A stretch of 52,593 nt of DNA, taken from contig CACXMK010000008.1 in the NCBI GenBank assembly GCA_902768735.1, positions 1 to 52,593 on the forward strand, read 5' to 3'. Position 1 is the stretch's first letter. The number at the start of each line of letters is the position of its first letter. The notes below the pieces were generated by a model that was given only the letters and a program-made list of their open reading frames with translations, was not told the DNA's origin and did no database searches. Position numbers and translations under genes: made by a program. Source of the stretch: an uncultured Lachnospiraceae bacterium (GTDB lineage Bacteria; Bacillota; Clostridia; Lachnospirales; Lachnospiraceae). Shown piece after piece: positions 8,948-52,494 of the stretch.

Positions 8948-8983
8948 AAGGGAGAGTTGAATTATAAGGGAGAGTTGAATTAT
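8948..8983 (+). repeat. Perfect 18-bp tandem duplication carrying the ribosome binding site
   Basis: AAGGGAGAGTTGAATTAT occurs at 8948-8965 and again, with no gap, at 8966-8983. Each copy carries the Shine-Dalgarno GGGAG. The second copy ends inside the ATG of the exonuclease gene, while the first leads only to ATAAG. Confidence 0.95.
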
Positions 8984-9740
8984 GAAGAAATTCATATCCT
9001 GGAATGTGAACGGGCTCCGCGCGTGCATTAAGAAGGACTGCTTCTATGAATTTATAAAGGCTGAAGATCCCGACGCGGTCTGCCTGCAGGAGACCAAACT
9101 GCAGGAGGGGCAGCTGGAGGTCGATCTCCCCGGATATCATCAGTACTGGAATTACGCGGACAAGAAAGGCTACTCCGGAACGGCCATCTTTGCCAAAGAA
9201 GAGCCTCTTTCCGTTTCTTACGGGATCGGCATCGACGAGCACGACCATGAGGGAAGGGTCATCACCCTGGAATATCCGGAGTATTACCTGATCACAGTCT
9301 ATACTCCGAATTCCCAGGACCAGCTCGCGAGGCTGGACTACCGCATGACGTGGGAGGACGACTTCCTCGCCTATGTAAAGGGGCTTTCGGAGAATAAGCC
9401 CGTGATCTACTGCGGCGACCTCAATGTCGCGCACAAGGAGATCGATCTCAAGAACCCGTCAACAAACCGCCGCAACGCCGGTTTTACGGACGAGGAGCGC
9501 GCCAAGATGACGACGACGCTCGAGAGCGGATTTACCGACACGTTCCGGTTTTTTTATCCGGACCTCGAGAAGGTCTACAGCTGGTGGTCTTACCGCTTCC
9601 GCGCGAGGGAGAAGAACGCGGGATGGCGCATCGACTACTTTATCGTGTCCGACAGCTTACAGCCGAGGCTGAAGGACGCCAAGATCTATACAGATGTCAT
9701 GGGATCGGACCACTGCCCCGTGGGATTGATCCTGGAATAA
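8982..9740 (+). CDS. xth: Exodeoxyribonuclease III / AP endonuclease
   Basis: A 252-residue base-excision repair nuclease of the exonuclease III family that would cleave DNA at abasic sites and trim 3' ends. Visible motifs in order: SWNVNGLRA near the N-terminus, LQETKLQ (metal-binding Glu), the YTPNSQ segment, [13 protein letters not shown] (catalytic Asp/Asn), [26 protein letters not shown] and the terminal GSDHCPVGL (catalytic Asp-His). Length is typical. Its start sits on the duplicated ribosome binding site. It is followed after 25 bp by the Mrp gene. Confidence 0.97.
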
Positions 9741-9765
9741 TATAAAATGGAGGAATGAAAGCAAC

Positions 9766-10584
9766 ATGAGTACACAGAACAACGGAGCACCGAAGCCGCC
9801 CACACCGTCCGCACAGACGGATTTCAGCATTGAAGCCCATCCCGGCAGCCATGTGAACAAAGTGATCGCGGTCGTCAGCGGAAAGGGAGGCGTCGGAAAG
9901 TCTTCTGTCACGGCGATGAGCGCGCTTTGGACAAGAAGAAACGGCTACCAGACAGCAGTCCTGGACGCGGATATCACAGGCCCCAGTGTCCCGAAGATGT
10001 TCGGCGTCGGTTACGCGGACCTCGTGGCGACCGAGGAGTGTCTCTATCCCGCAAATACCATCACAGGCATCAAGGTCATGTCCATGAACTTGCTCTCCAA
10101 GCAGGAGGACGCGCCGGTCATCTGGAGAAGTCCTGTCATCACAGGCGCGATCAAGCAGTTCTGGACGGATGTCTGCTGGGGCTATGTGGACTACATGTTC
10201 ATCGACATGCCTCCGGGAACCGGCGATGTGCCGCTCACTGTTTTCCAGTCGTTCCCGGTCGACGGTATCATCATCGTCACGACGCCCCAGGACCTCGTCA
10301 GCATGATCGTCAAAAAAGCGCTCGGCATGGCGAAACTCATGAAGGTGCCGGTGCTCGGCATCGTCGAGAACATGAGCTATGTCAAGTGCCCGCACTGCGG
10401 CGAGGAGATCCGCATCTTCGGCGACAGCCATGTGGAAGAGATCGCAGAGAAATATGACATCCCGATCATCGCCAGGATCCCGATCGATCCGGAGATGACT
10501 TCCTATATGGATACGGGAAGAGCGGAATACTATGAGAGCACCTTTATGGAGGGATTAAAGGACGTCCTTCCGCCCGTCGACTGA
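9766..10584 (+). CDS. mrp: Mrp/NBP35-family P-loop ATPase, iron-sulfur cluster carrier
   Basis: A 272-residue cytoplasmic P-loop NTPase of the Mrp/ApbC/NBP35 family, whose members carry and transfer iron-sulfur clusters. The deviant Walker A motif GKGGVGKSSVTA is near residue 45, the DADITGPSVPKMFG switch region follows, and IDMPPGTGDVPLT is the family signature. A C-terminal CPHC pair (MSYVKCPHCGEEI) would supply the bridging cluster ligands between subunits. The N-terminus lacks both the MIP18-like domain of some bacterial Mrp proteins and a cysteine-rich N-terminal cluster motif. The GGAGG at about 9749 is somewhat far from the ATG at 9766; the ATG in between runs straight into a stop. Confidence 0.93.
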   Translation: MSTQNNGAPKPPTPSAQTDFSIEAHPGSHVNKVIAVVSGKGGVGKSSVTAMSALWTRRNGYQTAVLDADITGPSVPKMFGVGYADLVATEECLYPANTITGIKVMSMNLLSKQEDAPVIWRSPVITGAIKQFWTDVCWGYVDYMFIDMPPGTGDVPLTVFQSFPVDGIIIVTTPQDLVSMIVKKALGMAKLMKVPVLGIVENMSYVKCPHCGEEIRIFGDSHVEEIAEKYDIPIIARIPIDPEMTSYMDTGRAEYYESTFMEGLKDVLPPVD

Positions 10585-10599
10585 CAGGGGGGGCCTTCC

Positions 10600-10660
10600 G
10601 CGGCACTGTTTTGACACTTTCCCGGCCGGCGCGGCACTGTTCTGACACGAGAGGCCGGGA
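10600..10660. repeat. 18-bp direct repeat, second copy inside a hairpin loop
   Basis: GCGGCACTGTTTTGACAC (10600-10617) recurs with one mismatch at 10631-10648, a 31-bp period. The second copy lies in the loop of a stem formed by TCCCGGCC (10620-10627) and GGCCGGGA (10653-10660). No T run follows, so it is not a standard terminator. The GTTTTGACAC part could also be read as a -35-like element. Confidence 0.7.
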
Positions 10661-10678
10661 GCAGCACAGGAGGAGACC

Positions 10679-11488
10679 ATGATTCTTGCGATTGATACAG
10701 GAAACACACATGTCGTACTGGGATGTATCGATAATAAAGGAGGCATCAGCCATATCATCCGCCTGGAGACCAATCTTGGGAAGACGGAGTACGAATACGC
10801 CTCGGACATCAAACAGATCCTGGAGCTGGAAGGCGTGGACAGGTTCGGCTTTGACGGAGCGATTATCTCTTCTTCCGTCCCGCCGATCATAGAGACCCTC
10901 CAGCGGGCGGTGAAGATCATCACGGGGATCGACGCGATGGTGGTCGGCATCGGCGTAAAGACAGGGCTGGACATCGTTCTGGACGATCCGAGCACGATCG
11001 CCGCTGACCTCGTGGCGACAGCGGTCGCGGCAAAGAACGAGTACCCGCTTCCCTGTATCATCATCGACATGGGGACGGCAACGACAGTGACCGTCGTGGA
11101 CGCGAAGGGACGGTATATCGGCGGAGCGATCCTGCCCGGCGTGAGACTCTCCATGCGCGCGCTGGCAGCCGGCACGTCGCTTCTGCCCAATATTGAGATC
11201 GTCCCTCCGACGAAGACGATCGCCTCTAATACGATCGACTGCATGAAATCCGGCATTATCTACGGTTCGGCAGGCGCCCTGGACGGGATCCTTGACCACT
11301 ATATCGAGGAGCTCGGCGGCTCGGTCGGAAGCATTGTGGCGACAGGCGGGCTTGCGTCGACGATCTGCCCGATGTGCAGGCATGAGATCACATTGGACCA
11401 GAACCTCCTTCTGAAAGGGCTCTATGCGATCTATAAGAAAAACAAGCCCAGAAAGACAAGGCGCCCCAGACCGGCGGACGCCGAATAA
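10679..11488 (+). CDS. coaX: Type III pantothenate kinase
   Basis: A 269-residue enzyme of the ASKHA fold that phosphorylates pantothenate in the first step of coenzyme A synthesis. Family motifs are all present: the N-terminal phosphate loop AIDTGNTHVVLG, the SSVPP segment (SSSVPPI), the DDPSTIAADLVA region, IIDMGTATTVTVVD, and GGAILPGVRLSMRAL. Type III kinases are not inhibited by coenzyme A. The start is set by AGGAGG at about 10669. The very basic tail (KKNKPRKTRRPRP) is slightly longer than usual. It is followed by ftsH after 45 bp. Confidence 0.96.
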   Translation: MILAIDTGNTHVVLGCIDNKGGISHIIRLETNLGKTEYEYASDIKQILELEGVDRFGFDGAIISSSVPPIIETLQRAVKIITGIDAMVVGIGVKTGLDIVLDDPSTIAADLVATAVAAKNEYPLPCIIIDMGTATTVTVVDAKGRYIGGAILPGVRLSMRALAAGTSLLPNIEIVPPTKTIASNTIDCMKSGIIYGSAGALDGILDHYIEELGGSVGSIVATGGLASTICPMCRHEITLDQNLLLKGLYAIYKKNKPRKTRRPRPADAE

Positions 11489-11533
11489 ATCCTGAGGACA
11501 GAAATGTCCGCAGGACAGAGAGATAGTTAGAAA

Positions 11534-13801: not shown

Positions 13802-13849
13802 GAGCGGGAATGCGATATCCAGATTTAACAATAATCCGGAGCAGAGAAA

Positions 13850-15733
13850 ATGTTTGATGTGCAGGAAGAACTGAAAAAACTGCCTGCGAAGCCGGGCGTT
13901 TATATCATGCACGATGAGCGGGATGCGATTATCTATGTGGGAAAGGCGGTGAACCTCCACAATCGCGTCCGCTCTTATTTTCGTAAGATCGTAGGGAGAG
14001 GCCCCCAGATCGACCAGATGGTCAGGCAGATCACGCGCTTCGAGTACATCGTCACAGACTCGGAACTGGAGGCGCTGATCCTTGAGAACAACCTGATCAA
14101 AGAGCACCGTCCCAAGTACAACACGATGCTCAAGGACGACAAGACCTATCCCTATATCAAGGTGACGACAGGGGAGGCTTATCCGAGGATCCTCTTCGCG
14201 AGAAGGCAGAAGAAGGACAAAGCGCGGTATTTTGGCCCCTATTCGAGCGCGCAGGCAGTAAGGAGCACGATCGAGCTCTTAAACCGGATGTACGGGCTGC
14301 GGGACTGCGCGAGGGCGCTTCCCAGAGATTTCGGAAAAGAGAGGCCCTGCCTGAACTTTCACATGGAGCGCTGCTGCGCGCCGTGCACCGGGAACGTCCC
14401 GGAGGAGGAGTACAGGAAAAGGGTGGATATGGCGCTGGAATTCCTTTCCGGGCACTATGACCCGATCATCCGGGATCTGACGCAGAAGATGACAGAGGCC
14501 TCGGAAGCCATGGAATTCGAGCGGGCGATCCGCTTTCGCGACCTGTTGAACGATGTGCAGCAGGTGGCCCAGAAGCAGAAGATGTCGGAGAGCATCGGCG
14601 AGAACCGGGACATCCTCGGGATCGCGGTGGACACGTCGAGTCCCGATTCGGACGGCGTCGTGCAGACGTTCTTCCTTCGCGACGGGAAGCTGATCGGCCG
14701 GGAGCACTTCTATATGACCCATGTGGCGGGAAGGAAGAAACCGGAGATCCTCTCGGACTTCATCAGACAGTTTTACGGCGGCACGCCCTCCATCCCGAAG
14801 GAGATCATGCTCCCCTGCGAGCCCGCGGACAGAGAGCTCCTCGAGCAGTGGCTGACCGCGCTCAGGGGCGGCAAAGTCACGCTGAAAGTCCCGGCAAAGG
14901 GCCAGAAGGAGAAGCTTGTGGAGCTCGCCAACACCAACGCGGGCCTTATCCTCGACAAGGACAGGGAGCGTCTCAAGAGAGAGGAGGGACGGACGATCGG
15001 CGCTGTCAAAGAGCTCGAGGATCTTCTGGGGATCGGGAGCGCCAGCCGCATGGAGGCTTTTGACATCTCCAACATCAGCGGATTCGCCAACGTCGGGTCC
15101 ATGGTCGTCTACGAGAAAGGAAAGCCCAAAAGGAGCGATTACCGCAAGTTCCGGATCAAAACAGTGGCCGGCCCCAATGATTACGCCTGCATGAAAGAGG
15201 TGCTCACGAGGCGCTTCCGCCACGGCATGGACGAGCAGAAAGAGCTGTCCGAAAAGCAGATCGACAGCGAATTCGGGAGTTTTACCAGGTTCCCGGACCT
15301 TCTGATGATGGACGGCGGCAGAGGGCAGGTCAATATCGCCCTGCAGGTCCTGGGGGAGATGGGGCTAACGATCCCGGTCTGCGGAATGGTCAAGGATGAC
15401 CACCACAGAACGAGAGGTTTGTATTACAATAATAGAGAGATCCCGATCGACCGGTCGGGAGAGGCGTTTAAACTGATCACCCGCATTCAGGACGAGGCGC
15501 ACAGGTTTGCGATCGAGTATCACCGGTCGCTCCGCGGGAAGGCACAGACCACTTCGAGGCTGGATGAGATCCCGGGGATCGGCCCTGCGAGGAAAAAGGC
15601 GCTGATGCGGGAGTTCGGCTCCATTGCGGAGATCATGGAGGCGGACGCGGAGAGACTGGCGCAGGTCCCGGAGATCCCGGAAAGCACCGCGGAAGAGATC
15701 TACAGGTTTTTTCATAAAGAAGAGACGGAATAA
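13850..15733 (+). CDS. uvrC: Excinuclease ABC subunit C
   Basis: A 627-residue subunit of the UvrABC nucleotide-excision repair nuclease that makes both incisions. The N-terminal GIY-YIG domain (PGVYIMHDERDAIIYVGKA) makes the 3' cut. A cysteine cluster (CLNFHMERCCAPC) and the UVR motif (MEFERAIRFRD) follow. The RNase H-like domain for the 5' cut shows AFDISNISG, MMDGGRGQ and MVKDDHHRTRGL. A helix-hairpin-helix pair ends the protein (IPGIGPARKKALM). Length is typical. It heads the uvrC-hprK-murB-rapZ-whiA series, all on the plus strand with short gaps. Confidence 0.97.
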   Translation: MFDVQEELKKLPAKPGVYIMHDERDAIIYVGKAVNLHNRVRSYFRKIVGRGPQIDQMVRQITRFEYIVTDSELEALILENNLIKEHRPKYNTMLKDDKTYPYIKVTTGEAYPRILFARRQKKDKARYFGPYSSAQAVRSTIELLNRMYGLRDCARALPRDFGKERPCLNFHMERCCAPCTGNVPEEEYRKRVDMALEFLSGHYDPIIRDLTQKMTEASEAMEFERAIRFRDLLNDVQQVAQKQKMSESIGENRDILGIAVDTSSPDSDGVVQTFFLRDGKLIGREHFYMTHVAGRKKPEILSDFIRQFYGGTPSIPKEIMLPCEPADRELLEQWLTALRGGKVTLKVPAKGQKEKLVELANTNAGLILDKDRERLKREEGRTIGAVKELEDLLGIGSASRMEAFDISNISGFANVGSMVVYEKGKPKRSDYRKFRIKTVAGPNDYACMKEVLTRRFRHGMDEQKELSEKQIDSEFGSFTRFPDLLMMDGGRGQVNIALQVLGEMGLTIPVCGMVKDDHHRTRGLYYNNREIPIDRSGEAFKLITRIQDEAHRFAIEYHRSLRGKAQTTSRLDEIPGIGPARKKALMREFGSIAEIMEADAERLAQVPEIPESTAEEIYRFFHKEETE

Positions 15734-15745
15734 AGAAGAGATTGA
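15714..15745 (+). repeat. 16-bp near-perfect tandem duplication across the uvrC stop
   Basis: ATAAAGAAGAGACGGA (15714-15729) is followed immediately by ATAAAGAAGAGATTGA (15730-15745), differing at two positions. The junction includes the uvrC stop codon TAA (15731-15733), so the first copy is coding and the second is spacer. Confidence 0.8.
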
Positions 15746-15764
15746 ACAGTAAAAAGGAGCAGCT

Positions 15765-16742: not shown

Positions 16743-17675
16743 GTGATTACGACGGAACTACTCAGGGAACTTCGAAATATAGCTTCAGCGGACCGCGTTC
16801 ATGAGAAGGAGATCCTTGCGCAGCACTGTTCTTTTAAGACCGGCGGGCCGGCGGATCTGTTCATCCGCGTGGTCACGGCGGACGAACTGGAGCGGACATT
16901 GGAATGTCTTTCAGAGGCGGGCTGTGAAACGTTCCTGCTCGGCAGGGGAACGAACCTCCTGATCGGAGACGGAGGTTTCCGCGGCGCTGTCGTCACAATG
17001 TGCGCGCCCGCGGGAGAGAGATCAGAACTGTGCGAGGTCGCCGCGGACGGCTGCGTCATCAGAGCCGGTGCAGGGGCGTCCCTGTACAAAATTGCAATGG
17101 CGGCGAAAGACGCGGGCCTTTCCGGTTTCGAGTTCGCGGCAGGCATCCCGGGCTCCCTTGGCGGCGCGGTCATAATGAATGCCGGAGCGTACGATGGAGA
17201 GATGAAGCAGGTGATCAGGTCTGTGGAGGTCCTCTGTCCCGGAACCGGTGTGAACTGTTGCAGCGGGGAAGAGGCGGGATTCGGTTACAGGACCAGCCGT
17301 TTTAAGAGAGAAGGCGGGATCGTGCTCGGCGCGGAGATCGAACTGACGCCGGGAGACAAAGAAGGGATCGCCGCCCGGATCGCGGAGCTGGCACAGCGCC
17401 GGAGGGACAAGCAGCCGCTGGAATTCGCCAGCGCGGGCAGCACGTTCAAACGGCCGGAGGGCTATTTTGCCGGCAAACTGATCCAGGACGCGGGACTGAA
17501 GGGATTCAGCGTCGGCGATGCGCAGGTATCGGAGAAGCACGCGGGATTTGTCATCAACCGCGGAGGCGCGAGCGCCGCGCAGATCCGGGAACTGATCGAG
17601 GAGATACAGAGGATCGTCTTTGAAAATTCCGGCGTACAGCTGGAGCGGGAAGTGATCTATCTGGGTGACTTCTGA
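16743..17675 (+). CDS. murB: UDP-N-acetylenolpyruvoylglucosamine reductase
   Basis: A 310-residue FAD enzyme that completes UDP-N-acetylmuramate synthesis for peptidoglycan. The FAD-binding half shows SFKTGGPADLF (residues about 30-40), LGRGTNLLIGDGGFRG and AGIPGSLGGAVIMNAGAYDG. The substrate domain shows YRTSRFK and the Ser-containing SAGSTFKRPEGYFAGKLI, and the C-terminus has the VSEKHAGFVIN motif with the catalytic Glu. The start codon is GTG at 16743. The last codons (GDF and stop) form the first unit of a four-copy 17-bp repeat leading to rapZ. Confidence 0.96.
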   Translation: MITTELLRELRNIASADRVHEKEILAQHCSFKTGGPADLFIRVVTADELERTLECLSEAGCETFLLGRGTNLLIGDGGFRGAVVTMCAPAGERSELCEVAADGCVIRAGAGASLYKIAMAAKDAGLSGFEFAAGIPGSLGGAVIMNAGAYDGEMKQVIRSVEVLCPGTGVNCCSGEEAGFGYRTSRFKREGGIVLGAEIELTPGDKEGIAARIAELAQRRRDKQPLEFASAGSTFKRPEGYFAGKLIQDAGLKGFSVGDAQVSEKHAGFVINRGGASAAQIRELIEEIQRIVFENSGVQLEREVIYLGDF

Positions 17676-17731
17676 GCACTGGTGATTTCTGAGCTTTGTT
17701 GACTTCTGGGCATTGTTGACTTCTGGGCATT
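17664..17731 (+). repeat. Four tandem 17-bp units spanning the murB stop and the rapZ ribosome binding site
   Basis: Units lie at 17664-17680, 17681-17697, 17698-17714 and 17715-17731 with no gaps. The last two are identical (GTTGACTTCTGGGCATT); the first two differ at a few positions. Unit 1 contains the murB stop codon TGA (17673-17675). Unit 4 abuts the GGAGG of rapZ. Confidence 0.95.
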
Positions 17732-17743
17732 GGAGGAATGCGA

Positions 17744-19634: not shown

Positions 19635-19900
19635 TTAAGAAGTCAATTAAGATCTCCTGCCCTCACGGGCTGGAGCCGAGACCCATTGCGGAACTGGTGC
19701 AGGTGGCCAGCAGGCATGAGAGCAAGACCTATCTGGAGACAGAGACCAAGCGCGTCAACGCGAAGAGCATCATGGGTATGATGTCCCTGAATCTGGAAAA
19801 CGGCGATCTTCTCACCGTAACGAGTGATGGAAACGATGAGGAAGGAGCTATGGAGGAGATCCTGAGCTTCTTGAAGAGCAAGCTCAACCTTGTGGGATGA
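19631..19900 (+). CDS. Crh-like HPr paralogue with Glu at position 15
   Basis: An 89-residue HPr-fold protein. The regulatory serine is exactly at residue 46 in VNAKSIMGMMSL, the HprK target. The phosphocarrier histidine of HPr at residue 15 (GLHARP-type motif) is replaced by glutamate: the sequence reads PHGLEPRPIAEL. Bacillus Crh has Gln at this place and cannot carry phosphate from enzyme I, so this protein is expected to act only in regulation (Ser46-phosphorylated corepressor of CcpA-type control), not in sugar transport. It overlaps whiA by four bases (19631-19634) and lies 2.9 kb downstream of hprK, its probable kinase. A terminator follows at 19925. The C-terminal stop region starts a degenerate 13-bp duplication (19888-19913). 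Confidence 0.9.
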   Translation: MIKKSIKISCPHGLEPRPIAELVQVASRHESKTYLETETKRVNAKSIMGMMSLNLENGDLLTVTSDGNDEEGAMEEILSFLKSKLNLVG

Positions 19901-19924
19901 TCTTGTGGAATAAAATAGAATAAG

Positions 19925-19960: not shown

Positions 19961-20077
19961 TACATAAAACCCTCTTACATAAAACCCTCTTAAAAACTCT
20001 CCGCCGAAACCCCTGCAATAAAAATCCCCATAAAAAATTCCCAAAAGAAAATCCCATAAAAATATCCCCCATAAAAG
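19961..20077. repeat. Decaying tandem array of 13-16-bp A-rich/C3-5 units
   Basis: Two perfect 15-bp copies (TACATAAAACCCTCT at 19961-19975 and 19976-19990) lead into about six further degenerate units of the form ATAAAAANTCCC. Unit length varies from about 13 to 16 bp. Read on the minus strand it looks like repeated TTTTTATGGGA. It has no Shine-Dalgarno sequence or protein-like frame of its own and lies directly after a terminator. Confidence 0.75.
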
Positions 20078-20109: not shown

Positions 20110-20417
20110 GTTATGAAAAAGTTATTCGTAAACCAATGGCTGGCAGTTGGCTTTGTTGTTTTCTATGTTTTGAATTATAGAGACCAATCGTGTACAGAAA
20201 TTTAGTAATTATTGAAGATTGCATAAATAATATATGAACAAAATATGAACATGCAGCCTGCGATCGGTTTTTTTGCATTCTACGGCACGAAAATGTATAA
20301 TGTTGCGTAATCAGGAGCTGAGTATTCATTATAGTATTCATTTTTGATCAGTATGTCAATGACCGTGGGAATGACTGCATCACAAGAGCCTGAAAAAGGG
20401 TTTATGAAAAGGATTAT
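20110..20417. other. A+T-rich spacer without a recognisable gene
   Basis: About 300 bp distinctly richer in A+T than both sides. A 30-codon frame from 20112 (MKKLFVNQWLAVGFVVFYVL and ten more residues) has a hydrophobic centre but no Shine-Dalgarno sequence and is not accepted as a gene. The spacer ends with a degenerate repeat around TTATGAAAAGGA (20402-20413), which supplies the ribosome binding site of the GNAT gene at 20418. Confidence 0.5.
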
Positions 20418-21347
20418 ATGAAAAGAGTGTTTATCCTGCTCGAAGAACAATGGCAGAGCGAGAGCCTCCCTGAAGCGGAGGCGGCAGTACGCACATACCG
20501 GGAATATGGTTTCGATGCGGAACTGCGGGTCTTCGGAGCGCGGGAGAGGATCGAAAGGGTGCGGGAGAGGATGTGCGAAGCGCGGGCGGCTTTTGGCACA
20601 CTGTGCATCGCGGATTCCTGGAGACTCCTCGGACAGCTCGCGGACTGCGGGGCGGCCTTCTGCGCCTATTCCCACAGCGGCAATGCGGGGGAAGACCTCA
20701 GCGCCGCGGAATATATCCTGATGGAGCCGCAGTGGGTGGACCGCGACTCCCTGGTGAAGATCTGGCAGCGGCAGAGAAACCTCCCGTGGACGATCCTTCA
20801 GACGGAGCGCTGCATCGTCCGCGAATTTGTCCCGGAGGACCTGGACGCGATCTATGAATTGTACGATGAGGAGGCGAGGCGCTTTTTAGAAGCGCCGTCC
20901 GGGAACAGGAGCCTTGAGAAGGAGATATTGACCGCCTATATCCGCAGAGTGTACCGCCTCGGCGGATACGGCGACTGGGCGGTGATCGAAAAGACGTCCG
21001 GCAGGCTGATCGGGAGGATGGGCTACTCGTTCCCTTCCGCGGAAACGCCGGAACCTGCTCCGGACGTGACCTTCGGATACCTCATCCACTCCGGATGGCG
21101 GGGCAGAGGGATCGCGAAGGAAGCCGGAAAAGCGATATTGGAGTATGGCTTTACACAGCTGGGATTTGAGACCATCGGCGCAGATGCAGCGGTCTCTAAC
21201 ACGGTGTCAGACAAACTTCTGCGGTCCTTCGGATTCGTCCCGGCATCTGACAGCGTTCCTTCAGATAGAATAGAAAACAATAGAATAGAAAACAATAGAA
21301 TAGAGGACAGGAGATACTATGTTTTGACCCGAGAGGTTCTGTCTTGA
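20418..21347 (+). CDS. Two-domain GNAT acetyltransferase
   Basis: A 309-residue protein. The C-terminal half (about 130-300) is a RimJ-like GNAT N-acetyltransferase: it starts ILQTERCIVREFVPEDLDAI, has the acetyl-CoA loop in HSGWRGRGIAKEAGKAI and ends in LLRSFGFVPAS. The N-terminal 120 or so residues look like a small Rossmann- or HAD-like domain of unknown role, a combination seen in other clostridial GNAT proteins. The tail contains a five-residue repeat (RIENN, RIENN, RIEDR) produced by a 15-bp tandem duplication at 21266. The acceptor substrate cannot be inferred. It stands between a gene-free spacer and the aminotransferase. Confidence 0.85.
   Translation: MKRVFILLEEQWQSESLPEAEAAVRTYREYGFDAELRVFGARERIERVRERMCEARAAFGTLCIADSWRLLGQLADCGAAFCAYSHSGNAGEDLSAAEYILMEPQWVDRDSLVKIWQRQRNLPWTILQTERCIVREFVPEDLDAIYELYDEEARRFLEAPSGNRSLEKEILTAYIRRVYRLGGYGDWAVIEKTSGRLIGRMGYSFPSAETPEPAPDVTFGYLIHSGWRGRGIAKEAGKAILEYGFTQLGFETIGADAAVSNTVSDKLLRSFGFVPASDSVPSDRIENNRIENNRIEDRRYYVLTREVLS
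21266..21306 (+). repeat. In-frame 15-bp tandem duplication in the GNAT gene
   Basis: TAGAATAGAAAACAA at 21266-21280 is repeated exactly at 21281-21295, with a partial third copy to about 21305. In the coding frame this yields RIENN-RIENN-RIEDR. It lies near the 3' end of the gene, as do the spacer duplications elsewhere in the window. Confidence 0.9.
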
Positions 21348-23634: not shown

Positions 23635-23666
23635 TATAAATAACAGGCATTATAAATAACAGGCAT
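23635..23666 (+). repeat. Perfect 16-bp tandem duplication after uppP
   Basis: TATAAATAACAGGCAT at 23635-23650 is repeated without gap at 23651-23666, directly between the uppP stop codon and its terminator. Confidence 0.95.
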
Positions 23667-24986: not shown

Positions 24987-25019
24987 AAGTAAATCCATAA
25001 GTAAATCCATTAAGTAAAA
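24987..25019 (+). repeat. 12-bp tandem repeat between hrcA and grpE
   Basis: AAGTAAATCCAT at 24987-24998 is repeated at 24999-25010; after one extra T a partial third copy (AAGTAAA) follows. The units lie about 25 bp past the hrcA stop. Confidence 0.9.
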
Positions 25020-27783: not shown

Positions 27784-27793
27784 TATGTAATAA

Positions 27794-27920
27794 CCCTAAG
27801 GCGCGAAGCGCCTCCAGGCGCCCGCAATCCCGAATGCGGAGCATGAGGGACGCGAGGTGCAGGGTGAATTGGAAATAGTTAATCGGGTGCCCAGGCGGCG
27901 CGTACAGCGCTGCTTGGGCA
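27794..27920 (+). other. Three-hairpin cluster between dnaK and dnaJ (site B)
   Basis: Hairpin 1 is AGGCGC-GAA-GCGCCT (27799-27813). Hairpin 2 is CCC-GA-ATGC, loop GGA, GCAT-GA-GGG (about 27829-27849), a two-helix stem joined by a GA/GA tandem mismatch. CCCT (27794-27797) and AGGG (27861-27864) can close both. Hairpin 3 pairs 27888-27901 with 27907-27920 over 14 positions, two of them G-T. There is no T run. Lying inside the operon, it may be an RNA processing or partial attenuation element. Confidence 0.65.
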
Positions 27921-27968
27921 ACTCCCTTGTAAAGAAGGCCAATATTATGGCAGGAATAGTAGAGGACC

Positions 27969-33751: not shown

Positions 33752-33796
33752 ACTGACTTGTTATTTACTGACTTGTTATTTACTGACTTGTTATTT
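33752..33796. repeat. Three perfect 15-bp tandem copies
   Basis: ACTGACTTGTTATTT occurs at 33752-33766, 33767-33781 and 33782-33796 without a mismatch, between the thiI terminator and the 3' end of the HPr-like gene on the other strand. Confidence 0.97.
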
Positions 33797-34166: not shown

Positions 34167-34192
34167 AATAGCTTCAGAAAATAGCTTCAGAA
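34167..34192. repeat. Perfect 13-bp tandem duplication upstream of mtaB
   Basis: AATAGCTTCAGAA at 34167-34179 is repeated at 34180-34192, about 24 bp before the mtaB start codon. Confidence 0.93.
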
Positions 34193-36607: not shown

Positions 36608-36679
36608 AAGGATTGTTTTAAGAGGACTGCTTTTAAGAGGATCGCTTTAGAGGGGACCATTTTCGGAAAGGACTGTTTT
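36608..36679 (+). repeat. Five degenerate 12-15-bp units, each with a Shine-Dalgarno-like core
   Basis: Units start at about 36608, 36620, 36635, 36649 and 36667 with consensus AAGAGGACTGCTTTT. Each contains AGAGGA, AAGGA or AGAGGGG. The last unit supplies AAAGGA seven bases before the ATG of the DUF1292 gene at 36680. Together they fill the whole ruvX-DUF1292 gap. Confidence 0.85.
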
Positions 36680-36949
36680 ATGGAAAAGATCAGATTGGTG
36701 TCGACCGATTCCACGGAAGTGGAGGAATTCTATGTTTTGGACCAGGCAAAGCTTGGAGGAAAGACATATATTCTGGTGGCGGACGAAGAAGAAGGCGACG
36801 GGATGGCCATGATCCTCAGGGACGATGCCGAGCCCGGAGCGGAGGAAGCGCTCTACGCTATCGTAGATGACGACAATGAACTGAACGCGCTGCTGCTGCT
36901 GTTTGAAGACAAGCTGGAAGAACTTGGAATCCTGATCGAAGAAGAATAG
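36680..36949 (+). CDS. DUF1292 (UPF0473) family protein
   Basis: An 89-residue acidic protein of the DUF1292 family, unknown in function, conserved beside ireB and ruvX across Firmicutes. The core TEVEEFYVLDQAKLGGKTYI, LVADEEEGDG, and the C-terminal FEDKLEELGILIEE fit the family. It has no membrane segment or signal peptide. RNase J starts nine bases after its stop, so the two are co-transcribed. Confidence 0.93.
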   Translation: MEKIRLVSTDSTEVEEFYVLDQAKLGGKTYILVADEEEGDGMAMILRDDAEPGAEEALYAIVDDDNELNALLLLFEDKLEELGILIEEE

Positions 36950-46429: not shown

Positions 46430-47143
46430 ATGTATACGTTTGACGGACGGATCAGATACAGTGAGGTCGACAGGACCCGCAGGCTGACAGTGGAGAAGAC
46501 CATAGATTATTTCCAGGACTGCTCCACGTTCCAGTCGGAAGACCTCGGCGTCGGGTTTGACTACATGGCGCAGATGCACAGCGCGTGGGTGATCAATTAC
46601 TGGCAGATCGAGTTCCGCAGAAGGCCGGCGCTCGGCGATGCTGTCAGGATCGGGACATCTCCCTATTCGTTCAAAGGCATCCTGGGTCTTAGGAATTTCT
46701 GGATGGAAACGGCGGAGGGCGAAAAACTCGCCGTGGCCAATTCCGTCTGGTCGCTGCTGGATCTTACGAAGATGTACCCGCAGCGGATCCCGGAGGAACT
46801 TGCCGGGAAATACGAGCTCTCCCCGAAGCTGGAGATGAAGTACAGCCCGAGGAAGATCGCGGTGCCGGATGCGGGTGGAGAAGCCGCGGAGGAGATCACG
46901 GTGAGACTTCACCATCTCGACACCAACCAGCACATGAACAACGCGCAGTACGTGCACTTCGCGGTGATGTACCTTCCGGCGGACGCGGAAGTGAGAGAAC
47001 TCCGTGTCGAATACAGGAAGCAGGCAATGCTCGGGGACCGTATCACGCCGGTTCTTTACCGCACGGATGGATGCCTGCTGGTATCCATGAACGGAACAGA
47101 CGGAAAGGCGTACGCGGTAGTGGAGATCAGCCTTTCGAAATAG
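46430..47143 (+). CDS. Acyl-ACP thioesterase
   Basis: A 237-residue double-hotdog enzyme of the bacterial acyl-ACP thioesterase family (related to plant FatA/FatB), releasing free fatty acids from acyl carrier protein. The first hotdog opens with FDGRIRYSEVDRTRRLTVEK and includes SAWVINYWQIEF; the second has HHLDTNQHMNNAQYVHF with Asn and His catalytic candidates. A GTG at 46403 is in frame, but GGGGAGGG fits the ATG at 46430. The last three codons (Ser-Lys-stop) start a five-copy 13-bp repeat. Confidence 0.92.
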   Translation: MYTFDGRIRYSEVDRTRRLTVEKTIDYFQDCSTFQSEDLGVGFDYMAQMHSAWVINYWQIEFRRRPALGDAVRIGTSPYSFKGILGLRNFWMETAEGEKLAVANSVWSLLDLTKMYPQRIPEELAGKYELSPKLEMKYSPRKIAVPDAGGEAAEEITVRLHHLDTNQHMNNAQYVHFAVMYLPADAEVRELRVEYRKQAMLGDRITPVLYRTDGCLLVSMNGTDGKAYAVVEISLSK

Positions 47144-47199
47144 ATTGTCAAAACAGAGTATCAAAACAGAGTATCGAAACAGATTATCGAAATAGATTA
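47135..47199 (+). repeat. Five tandem 13-bp units starting inside the thioesterase stop region
   Basis: Units at 47135-47147, 47148-47160, 47161-47173, 47174-47186 and 47187-47199 follow the consensus TCRAAAYAGAKTA without gaps. Units 2 and 3 are identical. Unit 1 includes the stop codon TAG (47141-47143) and the preceding TCG-AAA codons. Confidence 0.93.
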
Positions 47200-47228
47200 C
47201 AGACAGATCACAGGAAATGAGGTGAGCC

Positions 47229-48062
47229 ATGAAACTTGGACAGCTGCAGACCCTGAAAGTGGAAAAAACAGTGCCGTTCGGCGTATATCTGATCGGAGAC
47301 GATCCGCAGGAAGGACGCGTCCTCCTGCCGCGATCCCAGGTGCCGGAGGGAACCTCCGAGGGAGATGAGCTGGAAGTCTTTCTCTATAAAGATTCTGAGG
47401 ACAGAATGATCGCGACCCGCAAAAAGCCCAAACTCATGCTGCACGAAGTGGGATACCTGACAGTGCTGCAGGTCGGCCGGATCGGCGCTTTTTTGGACTG
47501 GGGACTTGATAAGGATCTCCTTCTGCCGTTCCATGAGCAGCCGAGGGAGAGGGTCAAAGAGGGACAGGAAGTTCTGGTCGCTGTCTACCTCGATAAGAGC
47601 CAGAGGCTCTGCGCGACGATGAACGTCTATCCGTACCTCAGCAAGGAGAGCCCTTATAGGACCGGCGACCAGGTGACCGGCATCATCTATGAGACGAGCC
47701 GCAATTTCGGTGCATTTGTTGCCGTAGACAGCAAGTATTCGGCGCTGATCCCCAAGAGAGAGCTGGTCAGGGACCTGCGCGTCGGCGACGTGATCTCCGC
47801 GAGAGTGACAGCGGTTAAACCGGACGGCAAGCTCGATCTGAGCATCCGCGAGAAAGCACCGCTGCAGATGGACCGCGATATGGACCGGATCCTCAACAGA
47901 ATGCAGGCAAACAACGGGCGCCTTCCGTTCAATGACAGGGTGGCCCCCGAGATCATTCGCGTAGAGATGCAGATGAGCAAGAACGAGTTCAAGAGAGCGG
48001 TCGGGCATCTTTTAAAGCTCGGCAAGATCGAGATCGGCGCGAACGATATCAGAATCAAATAA
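47229..48062 (+). CDS. S1-domain RNA-binding protein, CvfB/YitL family
   Basis: A 277-residue cytoplasmic protein of the CvfB family, which in Staphylococcus affects virulence-gene expression and binds RNA. Three S1-like beta-barrels follow one another: LGQLQTLKVEKTVPFGVYLI, GYLTVLQVGRIGAFLDWGL and PYRTGDQVTGIIYETSRNFG. The C-terminal winged helix is MQMSKNEFKRAVGHLLKLGK. AATGAGGTG precedes the ATG. The final codons and stop are duplicated in the 15-bp repeat at 48050. A long terminator follows. Confidence 0.92.
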   Translation: MKLGQLQTLKVEKTVPFGVYLIGDDPQEGRVLLPRSQVPEGTSEGDELEVFLYKDSEDRMIATRKKPKLMLHEVGYLTVLQVGRIGAFLDWGLDKDLLLPFHEQPRERVKEGQEVLVAVYLDKSQRLCATMNVYPYLSKESPYRTGDQVTGIIYETSRNFGAFVAVDSKYSALIPKRELVRDLRVGDVISARVTAVKPDGKLDLSIREKAPLQMDRDMDRILNRMQANNGRLPFNDRVAPEIIRVEMQMSKNEFKRAVGHLLKLGKIEIGANDIRIK

Positions 48063-48079
48063 TGCAGAATCAAATAATG
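48050..48079 (+). repeat. Perfect 15-bp tandem duplication including a stop codon
   Basis: CAGAATCAAATAATG at 48050-48064 is repeated at 48065-48079. The first copy encodes the final Arg-Ile-Lys and the stop TAA (48060-48062). Confidence 0.95.
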
Positions 48080-48106
48080 TTATAAGAAATATCGGATAAC
48101 AGTCAT

Positions 48107-48178: not shown

Positions 48179-48354
48179 GTCTGTTCTTATGAAAAATCCA
48201 CAAATTTTTCTTGTTTTTTTATGGATTTTTGTACGAATATGGGCTAAAATAAAACTGATGGCATATTTTTTGAAGAAAAAAGTTGTATTTATTCTAAGGT
48301 CCATCAGGTCAGAAGACAAAATGAAAAATTTGATAAGAAAGCGTGAGGGGGGAC

Positions 48355-49443
48355 ATGGTTTCAAATCAGGTATTACAGAATACAATCGAAGGAATTAAAG
48401 AGATCTCGCATCTCGAGCTTGGGGTGATGGACGCGGACGGAAGAGAAGTGGCTGTGACCGCGCCGGTGTTTGCCGACATTGTCAGCGCGATCCCGGATTT
48501 TGCTGCTTCTCCTGCTGATTCACAATCGGCGGGGCCTTATCAGTTCTTTAAGGTTATGGACGAGCAGCAGCTCGAATATGTCATCGTGGTCTACGGAGAG
48601 ACGGACAGCTCGCTCCTGGTCGGCCGGATGGCGGCTTTCCAGCTCAAGGGGCTGATGAGCGCCTTCAAGGAGCGCTATGACAAGGACAGCTTCATGAAGA
48701 ACCTGCTTCTTGATAACCTTCTCCTCGTGGACATCTACAGCCGGGCCAAGAAACTGCATATCGCATCCGACGCGCAGAGAGTCGTCCTGATCGTCGAGAC
48801 AGGCTCGGAGCGCGACAGGAACGTGCTCGAGGTCGTCCAGGAATTCATCGGGACAACGACAATGGACTTCGTCACTGCGGTCGACGAGAACAATGTCGTG
48901 GTGGTCAAGGACCTGACGGACGGAAGCAAGATCAGGGACATCGAAAAGACGGCGAACGGGATCGACGCTCATCTGCGCAAGATGGGCATCGGCGGGATCC
49001 GCGTCGCGTACGGCACGGTCGTGAATGAGATCAAGGAAGTGAGCCGTTCCTACAAGGAAGCCAAGATGGCGCTGGACGTCAGCAGGATCTTCTTTGAGGA
49101 CAGGACCGTGATCGCTTACAATGAGCTCGGGATCGGCAGGCTGATCTATCAGCTGCCCATTCCTCTCTGCAAGATGTTCATCCGTGAGATCTTCAAGGGA
49201 AAGAACCCCGAGGAGTTCGATCAGGAGACGCTTGCGACGATCAACAAATTCTTTGAGAACAGCCTCAATGTCTCCGAGACATCCAGGCAGCTGTTCATCC
49301 ACAGAAACACGCTGGTCTACCGTCTGGACAAGCTTCAGAAGAGCACCGGCCTGGATCTTCGTGTGTTTGAAGACGCCATCACGTTCAAGATCGCGCTGAT
49401 GGTGGTCAAGTATATGAAGTATATGAAGCAGTTTGAATATTAA
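48355..49443 (+). CDS. CdaR/PucR-type transcriptional regulator
   Basis: A 362-residue regulator. The N-terminal 130 or so residues resemble a CdaR-type ligand-sensing domain (LQNTIEGIKEISHLELGVMD, and LEYVIVVYGETDSSLLVGRM); a middle GGDEF-like regulatory region follows. The PucR-type helix-turn-helix is at the C-terminus (NSLNVSETSRQLFIHRNTLV followed by YRLDKLQKSTGLDLRVFEDA). It is only distantly similar to the CdaR at 3483-4631. No transporter or catabolic operon is adjacent, so its target is unknown. The ATG at 48355 after GAGGGGGGA is preferred to the GTG at 48343. Its 290-bp upstream region contains the long terminator and an A+T-rich leader. Confidence 0.87.
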   Translation: MVSNQVLQNTIEGIKEISHLELGVMDADGREVAVTAPVFADIVSAIPDFAASPADSQSAGPYQFFKVMDEQQLEYVIVVYGETDSSLLVGRMAAFQLKGLMSAFKERYDKDSFMKNLLLDNLLLVDIYSRAKKLHIASDAQRVVLIVETGSERDRNVLEVVQEFIGTTTMDFVTAVDENNVVVVKDLTDGSKIRDIEKTANGIDAHLRKMGIGGIRVAYGTVVNEIKEVSRSYKEAKMALDVSRIFFEDRTVIAYNELGIGRLIYQLPIPLCKMFIREIFKGKNPEEFDQETLATINKFFENSLNVSETSRQLFIHRNTLVYRLDKLQKSTGLDLRVFEDAITFKIALMVVKYMKYMKQFEY

Positions 49444-49469
49444 TTAATCCGGCACTTCGGGAACAAATA

Positions 49470-49585
49470 GGAAGCTGAGATGGGGAGCTTGCTCACCAGA
49501 TCAGCTTTCCATATGTTCGCAGGGCGTACAGAGCGCGAAGCGCTTATGGACGCCTTAAGTCGCAAATGCGAAGCATTTGGGACTT
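49470..49585 (+). other. Three-hairpin cluster upstream of ctpA (site D)
   Basis: Hairpin 1: GCTGA-GA-TGG and GAG (49474-49487) with CTC and CCA-GA-TCAGC (49492-49505), a two-helix stem with a GA/GA mismatch. Hairpin 2: GGCGT, CA and AGCGC, loop GAA, GCGCT, TG and ACGCC (49523-49554). Hairpin 3: AAGTC-G-CAAATGC, loop GAA, GCATTTG-G-GACTT (49557-49585), perfect except one G-G. Hairpins 2 and 3 align without gaps to hairpins 1 and 2 of site B. Confidence 0.75.
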
Positions 49586-49616
49586 GTGTGCTGATTACAG
49601 TGAAGGATTTATCGGA

Positions 49617-50897
49617 ATGGAAGAACAGAACGAGATCCGCGGCAGCGGACAGAGACGATATGTGAGTACCGGCGGGAGAAGGAGAGGCGGAAGCGGCTTT
49701 CTCCCCGGCGTACTTGTCGGTATCCTGATAGCGGTCATAGCTGTCGGGATTCTTTTTGCGCTCAGAGGCGGGAGCAGCATGCCGATGATCGGAGCCGGCA
49801 CGTCAACGGACGGCTTGGCGGTCGACGACGCAACGGTTCAAAAGCTCAAGGTGCTGGAACAGTATATCGATTACTATTTCTACAAATCCTCTGAAGTGAC
49901 GGACGAGCAGCTGGAAAACGGAATGTACAAGGGGCTTTTGAACTCCCTTGACGACGTCTACACCTGCTATTTCACGCCTGAGGAGTACCAGAGCATCAAG
50001 CAGCAGACCGAGGGCATCTATTACGGGATCGGCGCCTACGTGAGCAAGGACGTGGAGAGCGGCATGTGCGTCATCTCCGGCGTGATCAAGGGGACGCCCG
50101 CGGAAGCCGGCGGACTGATGGAAGGCGATATCATCTACAAGGTGGACGGCAAAGATATGGCCGGCATGGAGCTGGAGGAAGTGGTCGCTCACATCAAGGG
50201 CGAGGAAGGGTCGAAAGTCAAGGTCACCCTGATCCGGAACGGGGAAGAAATCGTCGTGGAACTGACCAGAGCGAAGGTGAGCGCTCCCACTGTGGATTCC
50301 GAGATGCTTGAAGGCGGCATCGGCTATCTGCAGATCACACAGTTCGATGACGTGACGACGAAGCAGTTCAGCGACAATCTCGCTTCGCTCAAGACGCAGG
50401 GACTTGAAGGACTGATCATCGACCTGCGGGGAAATCCCGGCGGAAACGTGACGACCGTGTGCGCGATCGCTGAGCAGTTCCTGCCGGAAGGCCTTATCTT
50501 CTACATGGAGGACAAGAATGGGACCCGGACCGAGTATACCTGCAAGGGAGCCAACTGGGATCTGCCTCTCGTCGTGCTCGTCAATGAGTACAGCGCCAGC
50601 GCCTCCGAGATCTTCTCCGGCGCGGTGAAAGATGCCGGCATCGGAAAGCTCGTCGGTAAAAAGACGTATGGTAAGGGCGTCGTGCAGAATCTGATCCCGT
50701 TTGAGGACGGCTCCGCCATCAAGATTACGGTCGCCAATTACTACACGAGAGGCGGCAACGACATCAACCTCAAGGGGATCGAGCCGGATGTCGAGATCGG
50801 ACTGGACAGCGAAGCGTACCTCGAGGACGGGACGGATACCCAGCTCGACAAGGCGGTCGAGGTCATGAAAGAGGAGATGGCTTCTCGGTCAAAATAG
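49617..50897 (+). CDS. C-terminal processing serine protease (S41)
   Basis: A 426-residue membrane-anchored tail-specific protease. A basic N-terminus leads to one membrane helix (about 25-45, GVLVGILIAVIAVGILFAL), then the N-terminal cap, a PDZ domain (about 130-215, YYGIGAYV, VISGVIKGTPAEAGGLMEGD), and the S41 domain with GGIGYLQITQF, IIDLRGNPGG, the catalytic Ser in NEYSASASEIFSG (about residue 322) and Lys in GKKTYGKG. Such proteases trim extracytoplasmic proteins. The frame is open to 49566, but the ATG at 49617 starts just before the basic and membrane segments and avoids hairpin site D. Confidence 0.94.
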   Translation: MEEQNEIRGSGQRRYVSTGGRRRGGSGFLPGVLVGILIAVIAVGILFALRGGSSMPMIGAGTSTDGLAVDDATVQKLKVLEQYIDYYFYKSSEVTDEQLENGMYKGLLNSLDDVYTCYFTPEEYQSIKQQTEGIYYGIGAYVSKDVESGMCVISGVIKGTPAEAGGLMEGDIIYKVDGKDMAGMELEEVVAHIKGEEGSKVKVTLIRNGEEIVVELTRAKVSAPTVDSEMLEGGIGYLQITQFDDVTTKQFSDNLASLKTQGLEGLIIDLRGNPGGNVTTVCAIAEQFLPEGLIFYMEDKNGTRTEYTCKGANWDLPLVVLVNEYSASASEIFSGAVKDAGIGKLVGKKTYGKGVVQNLIPFEDGSAIKITVANYYTRGGNDINLKGIEPDVEIGLDSEAYLEDGTDTQLDKAVEVMKEEMASRSK

Positions 50898-50994
50898 AGA
50901 GAGCGGGAGCGATCGCACGGCAATGATCTCACGGTAACGAAATTGTAAAAAATCTGTGATTTTTGACGATTTTCCATTGCCAATCCGCAAATTA

Positions 50995-51003
50995 TGCTAA
51001 AAT
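50995..51003 (+). promoter_or_regulatory. Extended -10 promoter candidate of the SPFH gene
   Basis: TGCTAAAAT (50995-51003) matches TGn plus a -10 hexamer, about 120 bp upstream of the start codon; TTGCCA at 50977 is a possible -35 with a short 15-bp spacer. The leader is purine-rich (AAGAAGGAAAAAGAGGAAAG). Confidence 0.5.
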
Positions 51004-51123
51004 AGTCATGGTAACGCGCTTTCTTCGTTTTACAGGGGAAAGCAAGAAGGAAAAAGAGGAAAGAAAAAGAAAGATAACTGCGGCATACACGCAGGTAAAT
51101 GGTAAAGCAAAAGGAGGTAAATT

Positions 51124-52428
51124 ATGGGACTTATTGCTGCGGCTGGTGCTTCTCTGTCATCGATCCTGGGAGATCAGTGGAAGGAGTATTTTTACTGCTC
51201 AGAGATGGGCAATAACGTACTGGTCCGTAAGGGACAGCGCAATCACGGAAAATCCGGACTTCTTAACAAGGGCGGAAGCGAAAACGTGATCACAAACGGC
51301 TCCACGATCGTTGTCAACGAGGGTCAGTGCATGATCATCGTGGATCAGGGCGCGATCGTAGATATCTGCGCACAGGCCGGCGCGTATACCTATGATGCCT
51401 CCTCAGAGCCCAGTATCTTCACGGACGGACTCGGCGCAGGGATCAAGAAGAGCTTTGAACAGTTCAAGGCGCGTGTTTCCTACGGCGGCGTGACAGCGCA
51501 TGACCAGCGCATTTACTATTTTAACACCAAGGATATCATCGGCAACAAGTACGGAACGGCCAACCCGGTTCCTTTCCGCGTTGTGGATAAGAACATCGGC
51601 CTTGACGTCGATATCGCGATCCGCTGCTTCGGCGAGTATTCCTACAGACTCAGCGATCCCATCCTGTTCTACAAGAACATCTGCGGCAACGTAAATACCG
51701 ATTACACGAAGGACCGCATCGAGAACCAGCTGCGTACAGAGCTTCTGACCGCTCTGCAGCCTGCGTTCGGCAAGATCTCCGAGATGGGCATCCGCTACAG
51801 CGCAGTGGTCAACCACACGACCGATATGGCAAACGCTCTCAACGAAGTCCTCTCCGACAGCTGGGGCGCCAAGTACGGCATCGTGATCTCCGCGTTCGGA
51901 ATCAGCAGCCTCAAGGCTTCTGAGGAAGACGAGAAGATGATCAAGGAACTTCAGAAGACCGCTGTTTTCCAGAACGCGGGCATGGCGGGCGCTATGAAGG
52001 TCAACGCAGAGGCGCAGGCGATGATGGATGCTGCCAAGAATCCCAACGGCGCGGCAATGGGCTTCATCGGAATGGGTATGGCGCAGCAGGCAGCAGGCGG
52101 CGGAACCGATGCGGCGACGCTGTTCGCAATGGCAGAGCAGCAGAAAGCGCAGCAGGCGGCAAAGATGCAGGCGGCAGCGGGCTGGAAGTGCCCTAAGTGC
52201 GGCAAGGAAGGCAATACCGGCAAGTTCTGCGGCGAGTGCGGAACACCCAAGCCGGCAGATCCCGAAGTCTGGAAGTGCCCTAAGTGCGGTACGGAAAACA
52301 AAGGCAAGTTCTGCAGCGAGTGCGGATCTCCCAAGCCGGTCGATGACGGCGCATGGACATGCCCTGCATGCGGACATGAAGGCAACAAGGGCAAGTTCTG
52401 CGGCGAGTGCGGACAGCCCAGACCCTGA
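51124..52428 (+). CDS. SPFH-domain protein with three C-terminal zinc ribbons
   Basis: A 434-residue protein of the virion-core-like SPFH/zinc-ribbon family (YdjI type). Residues about 1-270 form the SPFH-related region (WKEYFYCSEMGNNVLVRKGQ, then NGSTIVVNEGQCMIIVDQGA and VVDKNIGLDVDIAIRCFGEY). An Ala/Met/Gln-rich linker follows (about 285-350). Three zinc ribbons end the protein, each with two CxxC pairs: CPKCGKEG..CGECG, CPKCGTEN..CSECG and CPACGHEG..CGECG. Family members form membrane-associated assemblies linked to envelope stress in Bacillus. AAAGGAGG precedes the ATG. It is monocistronic, with its own promoter candidate and terminator. Confidence 0.9.
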   Translation: MGLIAAAGASLSSILGDQWKEYFYCSEMGNNVLVRKGQRNHGKSGLLNKGGSENVITNGSTIVVNEGQCMIIVDQGAIVDICAQAGAYTYDASSEPSIFTDGLGAGIKKSFEQFKARVSYGGVTAHDQRIYYFNTKDIIGNKYGTANPVPFRVVDKNIGLDVDIAIRCFGEYSYRLSDPILFYKNICGNVNTDYTKDRIENQLRTELLTALQPAFGKISEMGIRYSAVVNHTTDMANALNEVLSDSWGAKYGIVISAFGISSLKASEEDEKMIKELQKTAVFQNAGMAGAMKVNAEAQAMMDAAKNPNGAAMGFIGMGMAQQAAGGGTDAATLFAMAEQQKAQQAAKMQAAAGWKCPKCGKEGNTGKFCGECGTPKPADPEVWKCPKCGTENKGKFCSECGSPKPVDDGAWTCPACGHEGNKGKFCGECGQPRP

Positions 52429-52460
52429 GCGGCACAAGTGGCTGACGGAGGCGTCAGTAC

Positions 52461-52494
52461 AGATTTGATATTTGATAAGATTTGATATTTGTTA
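52461..52494 (+). repeat. 17-bp tandem duplication before the final terminator
   Basis: AGATTTGATATTTGATA (52461-52477) is followed by AGATTTGATATTTGTTA (52478-52494), one mismatch, between the SPFH stop codon and its terminator. Confidence 0.92.

Follow-up and report, generated by a model that had tools for sequence, protein, structure and literature searches.

The intergenic spacers of an uncultured rumen Lachnospiraceae bacterium are rich in short tandem duplications that may be the footprint of a mutational process peculiar to some lineages of one genus. The DNA in question is a stretch of 52,593 nucleotides (GenBank contig CACXMK010000008.1, hereafter the window), which is contig C8 of a metagenome-assembled genome, G000 (2.73 Mb in 157 contigs, 85.5% completeness). 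The duplications are in large excess over chance, fall in a narrow window of unit lengths, are young and, as far as the genus was sampled, are restricted to some of its lineages; half of the simple cases lack any junction homology. These features seem to be best explained by a mutational process, specific to certain lineages, through which AT-rich segments of ~12-20 bp are duplicated in tandem, presumably by fill-in of staggered breaks, with selection then acting on the products, and we assign to it a probability of about 0.38.

The main counts are of exact arrays with a period of 12-20, runs being merged into arrays; period 11 was excluded because at least two pairs of this period are conserved between species. 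Genes were called with a simple custom caller that yields approximate start positions, and short loci of 3-5 kb are mostly outside the array counts. In 452.6 kb of G000, 57.6 kb of spacer DNA contain 28 exact runs with a period of 12-18, compared with 0.05 expected from dinucleotide shuffles, and 395 kb of coding DNA contain five. In the full sample of 852.6 kb, 45 arrays were found in 97.5 kb of spacer, or 4.6 per 10 kb. The first-pass annotation, made on the window alone, ascribed its duplications to a process rather than to a dispersed element and placed them at gene ends. The former view is borne out, given that unit sequences differ and that the density, on the samples examined, is far above that of shuffles and that of relatives; neither of the outcomes that the annotation had named as refuting it was seen in these samples. 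The latter holds insofar as the arrays lie in spacers with a mild skew to the upstream half (Kolmogorov-Smirnov p=0.019 for the relative position in co-directional spacers), but the link to stop codons is weak. Of the 33 arrays with a period of 11-24 that lie in co-directional spacers, 24 either include at least part of the upstream stop codon or start less than 60 bp past it, that is, 73% compared with 62% under uniform placement, which is not the strong excess that had been anticipated. Conversely, arrays whose end is no more than 30 bp from the next start are depleted (8 of 33, or 24%, against 46% expected). Because the skew toward stops is mild and arrays are sparse before the next start, the gene-end pattern mostly reflects a location in spacers at some distance from the ribosome binding site. 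Co-directional, convergent and divergent spacers have similar densities (5.5, 6.9 and 4.9 arrays per 10 kb; n=33, 7 and 11, respectively), which, along with the small enrichment at stops, lends no support to the proposed enzyme acting near stop codons or to conflicts with transcription.

Coding DNA shows no comparable rise. There are nine arrays in 755 kb of coding sequence in G000 and eight in 668 kb in its clade relatives (p=0.60), and the difference from 44 loci of other Lachnospiraceae (two arrays in 701 kb) is marginal (p=0.043). Eight of the nine coding arrays of G000 have periods that are multiples of three. At the spacer density, 132 in-frame arrays would be expected in coding DNA. Either in-frame duplications are almost fully purged from coding DNA or the process favours AT-rich spacer DNA.

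The arrays are young: among 97 rows of relatives that span an array, just one has an exact tandem with a similar period. These rows, some of which are the same genome counted twice, cover 12 of the 56 queried arrays. The single exact case belongs to the window array at 15714 (1 of 36 rows), and fuzzy tandems were seen in the same row and in three more (19961, 1 of 4; an 11-bp pair, 2 of 2). Some direct pairs of 11 bp are conserved between species, namely, AAAATATGAAC, which is present twice in four relatives, and AAAGAGTTTAG, present twice in the relatives G025 and G024 (pair positions L052:16364, L054:8095, L057:15529 and L080:16376; L201:16374 for the pair in G025 and G024). These are probably regulator-binding boxes, a class distinct from the lineage-specific arrays of 12-20 bp, and may resemble the direct-repeat boxes of PhoB-type regulators.

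Within the sampled part of the genus, the excess is limited to certain lineages. In UvrC protein sequence, G000 shares 88-90% identity with several uncultured Lachnospiraceae of the rumen (the first clade) and 76-78% with a second clade, to which the isolate Sarcina sp. DSM 11001 belongs; among the relatives found, none exceeds ~90% identity. Two members of the first clade, G025 and G007, were assigned to it by DNA or partial uvrC match rather than by the tree. Seven first-clade relatives have four arrays in 81.7 kb of spacer (0.49 per 10 kb; p=1.3e-8 against G000); three of these arrays are in 33.2 kb of G025, the genome whose DNA matches the window over the longest uninterrupted stretches, and one is in 48.5 kb of the other six. 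The uvrC loci of 44 other Lachnospiraceae have two arrays in 84.3 kb (0.24 per 10 kb; p=1.6e-10), nine Butyrivibrio-like loci (eight so named) none in 16.7 kb, and two stretches of Escherichia coli K-12 none in 18.8 kb. The density in G000 is thus 9-22 times that in the clade relatives and ~19 times that in other Lachnospiraceae.

In the second clade, three of the six sampled genomes are enriched, a label that, like the clade-B contrast given below, was chosen after inspection of the data. G029, which was matched to the isolate Sarcina sp. DSM 11001, has eight arrays in 17.9 kb of spacer and G027 has six in 15.0 kb (six in 18.4 kb with its uvrC locus added), whereas G010, with three in 11.6 kb (three in 16.1 kb with the uvrC locus), is only weakly enriched. 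G008, which adjoins G027 on the uvrC tree, has none in 13.5 kb (none in 16.5 kb with the uvrC locus), G018 has one in 10.2 kb and G011 none in 2.1 kb. Further loci free of arrays comprise five clade-A-like (7.6 kb), eight second-clade-like (11.7 kb) and five other (9.0 kb) loci. The array sampling covered 32 of the 41 genus genomes used in the gene family searches described below. Among the 31 sampled genomes of the genus other than G000, with 22 arrays, heterogeneity is significant by likelihood ratio (p=0.014) and not by chi-square, the weaker statistic (p=0.118); with 18 arrays in 70.2 kb on one side and 4 in 127.0 kb on the other, the post hoc clade-B contrast gives p=1.2e-5. The rate at which arrays appear seems to vary between related species, though the statistical signal across these genomes is only moderate.

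The units are narrowly distributed in length. In the four enriched genomes, the numbers of arrays with periods from 12 to 20 are 10, 11, 6, 10, 14, 2, 4, 3 and 2, so that 51 of the 62 arrays have periods of 12-16; the G000 spacers contain 17 exact runs with a period of 8-11 and three with a period of 21-40. The junctions were analysed in 78 arrays with a period of 11-22 from seven genomes, of which 41 are simple, that is, have two copies and no third copy nearby, and 37 have at least three copies or additional ones that are partial or decayed. Units are AT-rich, with 32% GC compared with 43% elsewhere in the spacers that contain them (p=5e-5, n=41). Junction homology in the 41 simple arrays amounts to 0, 1, 2 and 3 or more bases in 24, 4, 9 and 4 cases, respectively, compared with 21.9, 11.4, 4.7 and 3.0 expected if the ends were joined blunt, with no excess in the class of 3 or more bases (p=0.36). 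About half of the events appear to be blunt, and some may have been helped by a match of two bases. A boundary motif, G at bases 1 and 4 after the second copy (p=0.002 each), was sought in 19 unambiguous arrays over 24 columns, and is not convincing after correction.

Junctions of this kind weigh on the strongest competing explanation, namely, that slippage or template switching between pre-existing short direct repeats in the flanks both seeds and expands the duplications. Tandem repeats are, by textbook account, products of slippage, the 37 arrays with additional copies fit an expansion step, and junctions of two bases are mildly more frequent than expected for blunt joining. However, seeding by slippage predicts several bases of homology at the junction, whereas homology amounts to 0-2 bases in 37 of the 41 simple arrays and is absent from 24 of them. 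Furthermore, slippage favours short units, whereas the arrays peak at 12-16 bp and are fewer at 8-11 bp, and MutS is present. Given that most of the simple junctions lack homology of several bases, slippage between pre-existing repeats of three or more bases seems disfavoured as the source of the first duplication, but slippage can explain the growth to 3-5 copies; as an account of the whole pattern, it seems rather unlikely.

Under the preferred reading, a mutational process with fill-in of staggered breaks, the seed would be a staggered break, or two nicks offset from each other, with a width of 12-20 nt. A polymerase would fill in both ends and rejoining, at times aided by a match of two bases, would leave the unit in two copies; ordinary slippage or unequal exchange would then carry two copies to 3-5, and the outer copies would decay by point mutation. 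The survivors would be confined to spacers, away from ribosome binding sites, by purifying selection and perhaps also by a preference of the process for AT-rich DNA. Fill-in followed by rejoining would be expected to leave 0-2 bases of homology, as in most of the simple duplications described here. Bacterial nucleotide excision removes a patch of 12-13 nt, and overlapping excision patches on opposite strands could, in principle, set the stagger.

Rejoining would have to proceed without Ku. The Ku profile (PF02735) had no match in any of the 41 genomes of the genus, a set in which many genomes are incomplete and 15 combine a completeness of 90% or more with contamination of no more than 5%; in 14 control genomes, the profile matched only in Bacillus subtilis. 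Because of this lack of a Ku match, rejoining would need another route, and end-joining repair of the classical kind, which had been among the proposed sources, is disfavoured. The 5' exonuclease domain of PolA, ExoVII and RecJ are all over the cut-off in G000, G029 and G010; in G027 (82% complete), RecJ is present and the PolA domain and ExoVII have no match. MutS is over the cut-off in G000 and, with both pieces of the frame joined, also in G029, G027 and G010. With these genes present, loss of flap processing, single-strand exonucleases or mismatch repair was rejected as the cause in G000, and none of Ku, the PolA exonuclease, ExoVII, RecJ, MutS and Y1_Tnp separates the enriched from the poor genomes. 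As a separate observation, the MutS matches of G010, G018, G027, G029, G061 and some others are split into two pieces near model position 370 within one longer frame, which suggests an in-frame insertion in these species.

Several points weigh against fill-in of staggered breaks. To our knowledge, there is little documentation in bacteria of filled-in ends being rejoined without Ku, and the responsible enzyme was not found among the gene families searched. The spread of unit lengths is wide for the stagger of a single enzyme. Junctions of two or more bases are more frequent than blunt joining predicts (13 of 41, p=0.033), and more so when only periods of at least 12 are considered (17, 4, 9 and 4 arrays in the four classes; 13 of 34 with two or more bases, p=0.006, or p=0.008 with AT-matched units), the excess being mild and located in the two-base class. 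The flat level of arrays in coding DNA implies that a genome-wide process combined with selection requires the purge of more than 90% of in-frame duplications. Finally, neither a new duplication nor a stagger was directly observed. The more specific claim that some species of the genus carry a previously undescribed Ku-independent activity that makes staggered lesions of 12-20 nt in AT-rich non-coding DNA and seals the filled-in ends with 0-2 bases of homology is best considered unlikely. If it is true, spacers in these species grow by tandem duplication through a bacterial counterpart of eukaryotic fill-in duplication that is switched on or off between related species.

It could also be that there is no special process, duplications arising at an equal rate everywhere and persisting in the spacers of the enriched lineages under weak purifying selection, owing to small populations and larger spacers. 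Indeed, G029, G027 and G010 have large genomes (3.9-4.2 Mb) with ~18-20% called as spacer. However, spacer accounts for only 11% of G000, and G024, G018 and G061, with 19%, 25% and 27% spacer, have 0, 1 and 0 arrays, respectively. Moreover, weak selection should raise the frequency of indels of all sizes rather than chiefly those of 12-20 bp, so that this scenario appears distinctly unlikely.

The spacers of G000 also contain two families of dispersed short palindromes, with the cores AAAGGGACAGACCCTTT and GACCCCAGAGGTC (for example, L007:12036-12132, L019:12055-12163, L205:17858-18013 and L011:16043-16082), and spacers that have short repeats in common form one linked group of 73 among 505 spacers. 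There are four Y1_Tnp matches in G000, in frames of 257-309 amino acids, one of which (G000:C11:43114-43446) lies ~1.2 kb from such a palindrome. The palindromes and the Y1_Tnp genes are likely to constitute a system of repetitive extragenic palindromes (REP) and REP-associated tyrosine transposases (RAYT) in Lachnospiraceae. Within the window, the spacers 27784-27968 and 49444-49616 belong to a linked group of nine with common stretches of ~30-115 bp, perhaps a small mobile or RNA element.

Such elements could themselves have left the tandem duplications as scars, either target-site duplications that outlived the loss of the insert or products of nicks by REP-associated transposases. The unit length is like that of target-site duplications, G000 has both the palindromes and the transposase matches, and G027 has short repeats common to three spacers. 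Nevertheless, this origin is improbable: unit lengths range from 12 to 20 bp, palindrome sequence is found in only 2 of the 45 arrays, and the sampled parts of G029 and G010 lack any 13-mer present in three or more spacers. G013, furthermore, has Y1_Tnp and palindromes, yet only one array in 13.0 kb, and that one within a palindrome.

There is still less reason to think that the arrays are functional, as repeated sites for regulators or as repeated stops that buffer readthrough, the latter a suggestion of the first-pass annotation that found no support. The stop codon is repeated at 15714, 17664, 47135 and 48050, and some conserved 11-bp pairs look like regulator boxes; however, those arrays of 12-20 bp for which a comparison could be made are not conserved in relatives, their unit sequences differ, and divergent and convergent spacers are as dense as co-directional ones, so that a function for the arrays is hardly credible. 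An artefact of assembly or sequencing, conceivable in a metagenome-assembled genome of 157 contigs and 85.5% completeness, is very unlikely because G029, matched to an isolate, is enriched as well, and is further contradicted by the decayed copies, which show age, and by the in-frame periods of the coding arrays.

Within the window, each of the 14 sites listed at the outset was read in the sequence and then examined with Tandem Repeats Finder (TRF), an exact-run detector and a mismatch count. All 14 duplications are present, 10 of them with at least two exact copies (8948, 17664, 19961, 21265, 23635, 24987, 33752, 34167, 47135 and 48050); one of the remainder, at 19888, is weak, and the array listed at 21266 turned out to be coding. 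Several sites lie across a stop codon. At 15714..15745, two 16-bp copies with 2 mismatches in 16 span the stop codon (15733) of uvrC, identified by Pfam; at 17664..17733, four 17-bp copies, the outer ones decayed, span the murB stop (17675), with an exact pair at 17696-17732; at 19888..19913, two 13-bp copies with 3 mismatches in 13 span the HPr stop codon (19900); and at 47135..47199, five 13-bp copies (86%) span a stop at 47143, with an exact pair at 47148. No tandem was seen in the spanning rows of relatives at 17664 (0 of 20, 17 of them shorter there), 19888 (0 of 5) or 47135 (0 of 9, the site being also aligned with G025). At 48050..48079, the last codons and the stop of a gene ending at 48062 are repeated exactly (15 bp, two copies), and G025 has the same gene tail in a single copy.

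Three further arrays lie next to terminator-like hairpins recognized by eye: two exact 15-bp copies (19961..19992, with no exact tandem in 4 spanning rows) and three exact 15-bp copies (33752..33796) on the 3' side, and two 17-bp copies with 1 mismatch in 17 (52461..52496) on the 5' side. The array at 33752 is flanked by a plus-strand gene and a weakly predicted minus-strand frame, and has no tandem in eight spanning rows. The array at 8948..8983 (18 bp, two exact copies, no junction homology) lies between a stop at 8945 and an ATG at 8982, its second copy extending two bases into that start codon. Exact pairs were found also at 23635..23666 (16 bp, 6 bp past a stop; no tandem in one spanning row), 24987..25018 (12 bp, with a partial third copy at a one-base offset) and 34167..34192 (13 bp; no tandem in eight rows). 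A decayed 12-15 bp array at 36608..36679 lies 5' of the gene at 36680 and consists, according to TRF, of 2.2 copies of 15 bp at 88% from 36616 plus decayed copies; one spanning row has no tandem there. The coding array at 21265..21304 on the plus strand (15 bp, 2.7 exact copies) is part of the open frame 20418-21347, that of a GNAT acetyltransferase, in which it specifies an in-frame repeat of five amino acids close to the C-terminus. TRF detected two arrays that had not been listed, a decayed 13-bp array at 20020..20076 (~4 copies at 80%) and a decayed 13-14 bp array at 20391..20434, over the predicted start of the gene at 20418. The window is not a demonstrable regional hot spot: its 9 arrays in 6.1 kb are above average, with p=0.17 for dispersion over 41 stretches. 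At 52183-52413, near the end of the gene 51124-52428, there is, in addition, an 84-bp tandem repeat of 2.7 copies, the consensus of which, by eye, encodes a repeated zinc-ribbon-like segment with paired CxxC motifs.

Tandem duplication is a main route of DNA growth and, in bacteria, is usually attributed to slippage. Related species that differ about tenfold or more in one narrow class of duplications provide a natural contrast for finding the gene responsible, and the genus offers a test of low-homology DNA duplication in bacteria without Ku. A note of caution also follows, in that repeats found between the genes of such genomes may be footprints of mutation rather than regulatory sites.

Short direct repeats in intergenic DNA are a known kind of feature: according to a survey (PMC4060949), close pairs of 10-mers are mostly over-represented in the intergenic regions of prokaryotes. 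Bacterial minisatellites, or loci with a variable number of tandem repeats, and close direct repeats as presented there are likewise tandem or close repeats in spacers; unlike such loci, the arrays described here are a genome-wide burst in some species of one genus, with narrow lengths and unrelated units. The literature searched, by title and beginning of the abstract and with subscription journals largely uncovered, yielded no account of such a burst. REP/RAYT systems, the subject of PMC2817692 and PMC3116915 and of which G000 is a likely case, are also short spacer repeats, but they consist of dispersed palindromes of common sequence, whereas the arrays are tandem copies of arbitrary local sequence, and the palindromes and Y1 transposases do not track the burst. 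A parallel in terms of scant junction homology comes from mammalian cells, in which, according to one study (PMC8355091), tandem duplications form by synthesis on protruding ends followed by rejoining with little or no microhomology, the main route being strongly reduced without Ku80 and using CST and Pol alpha-primase, whereas no Ku match was found in the genus studied here; fill-in duplication has been proposed for rice as well (as cited through PMC7407515). What is unusual in the bacterial arrays, compared with these known systems, is that the units fall in a narrow length window, that their junctions show scant homology and that related species differ.

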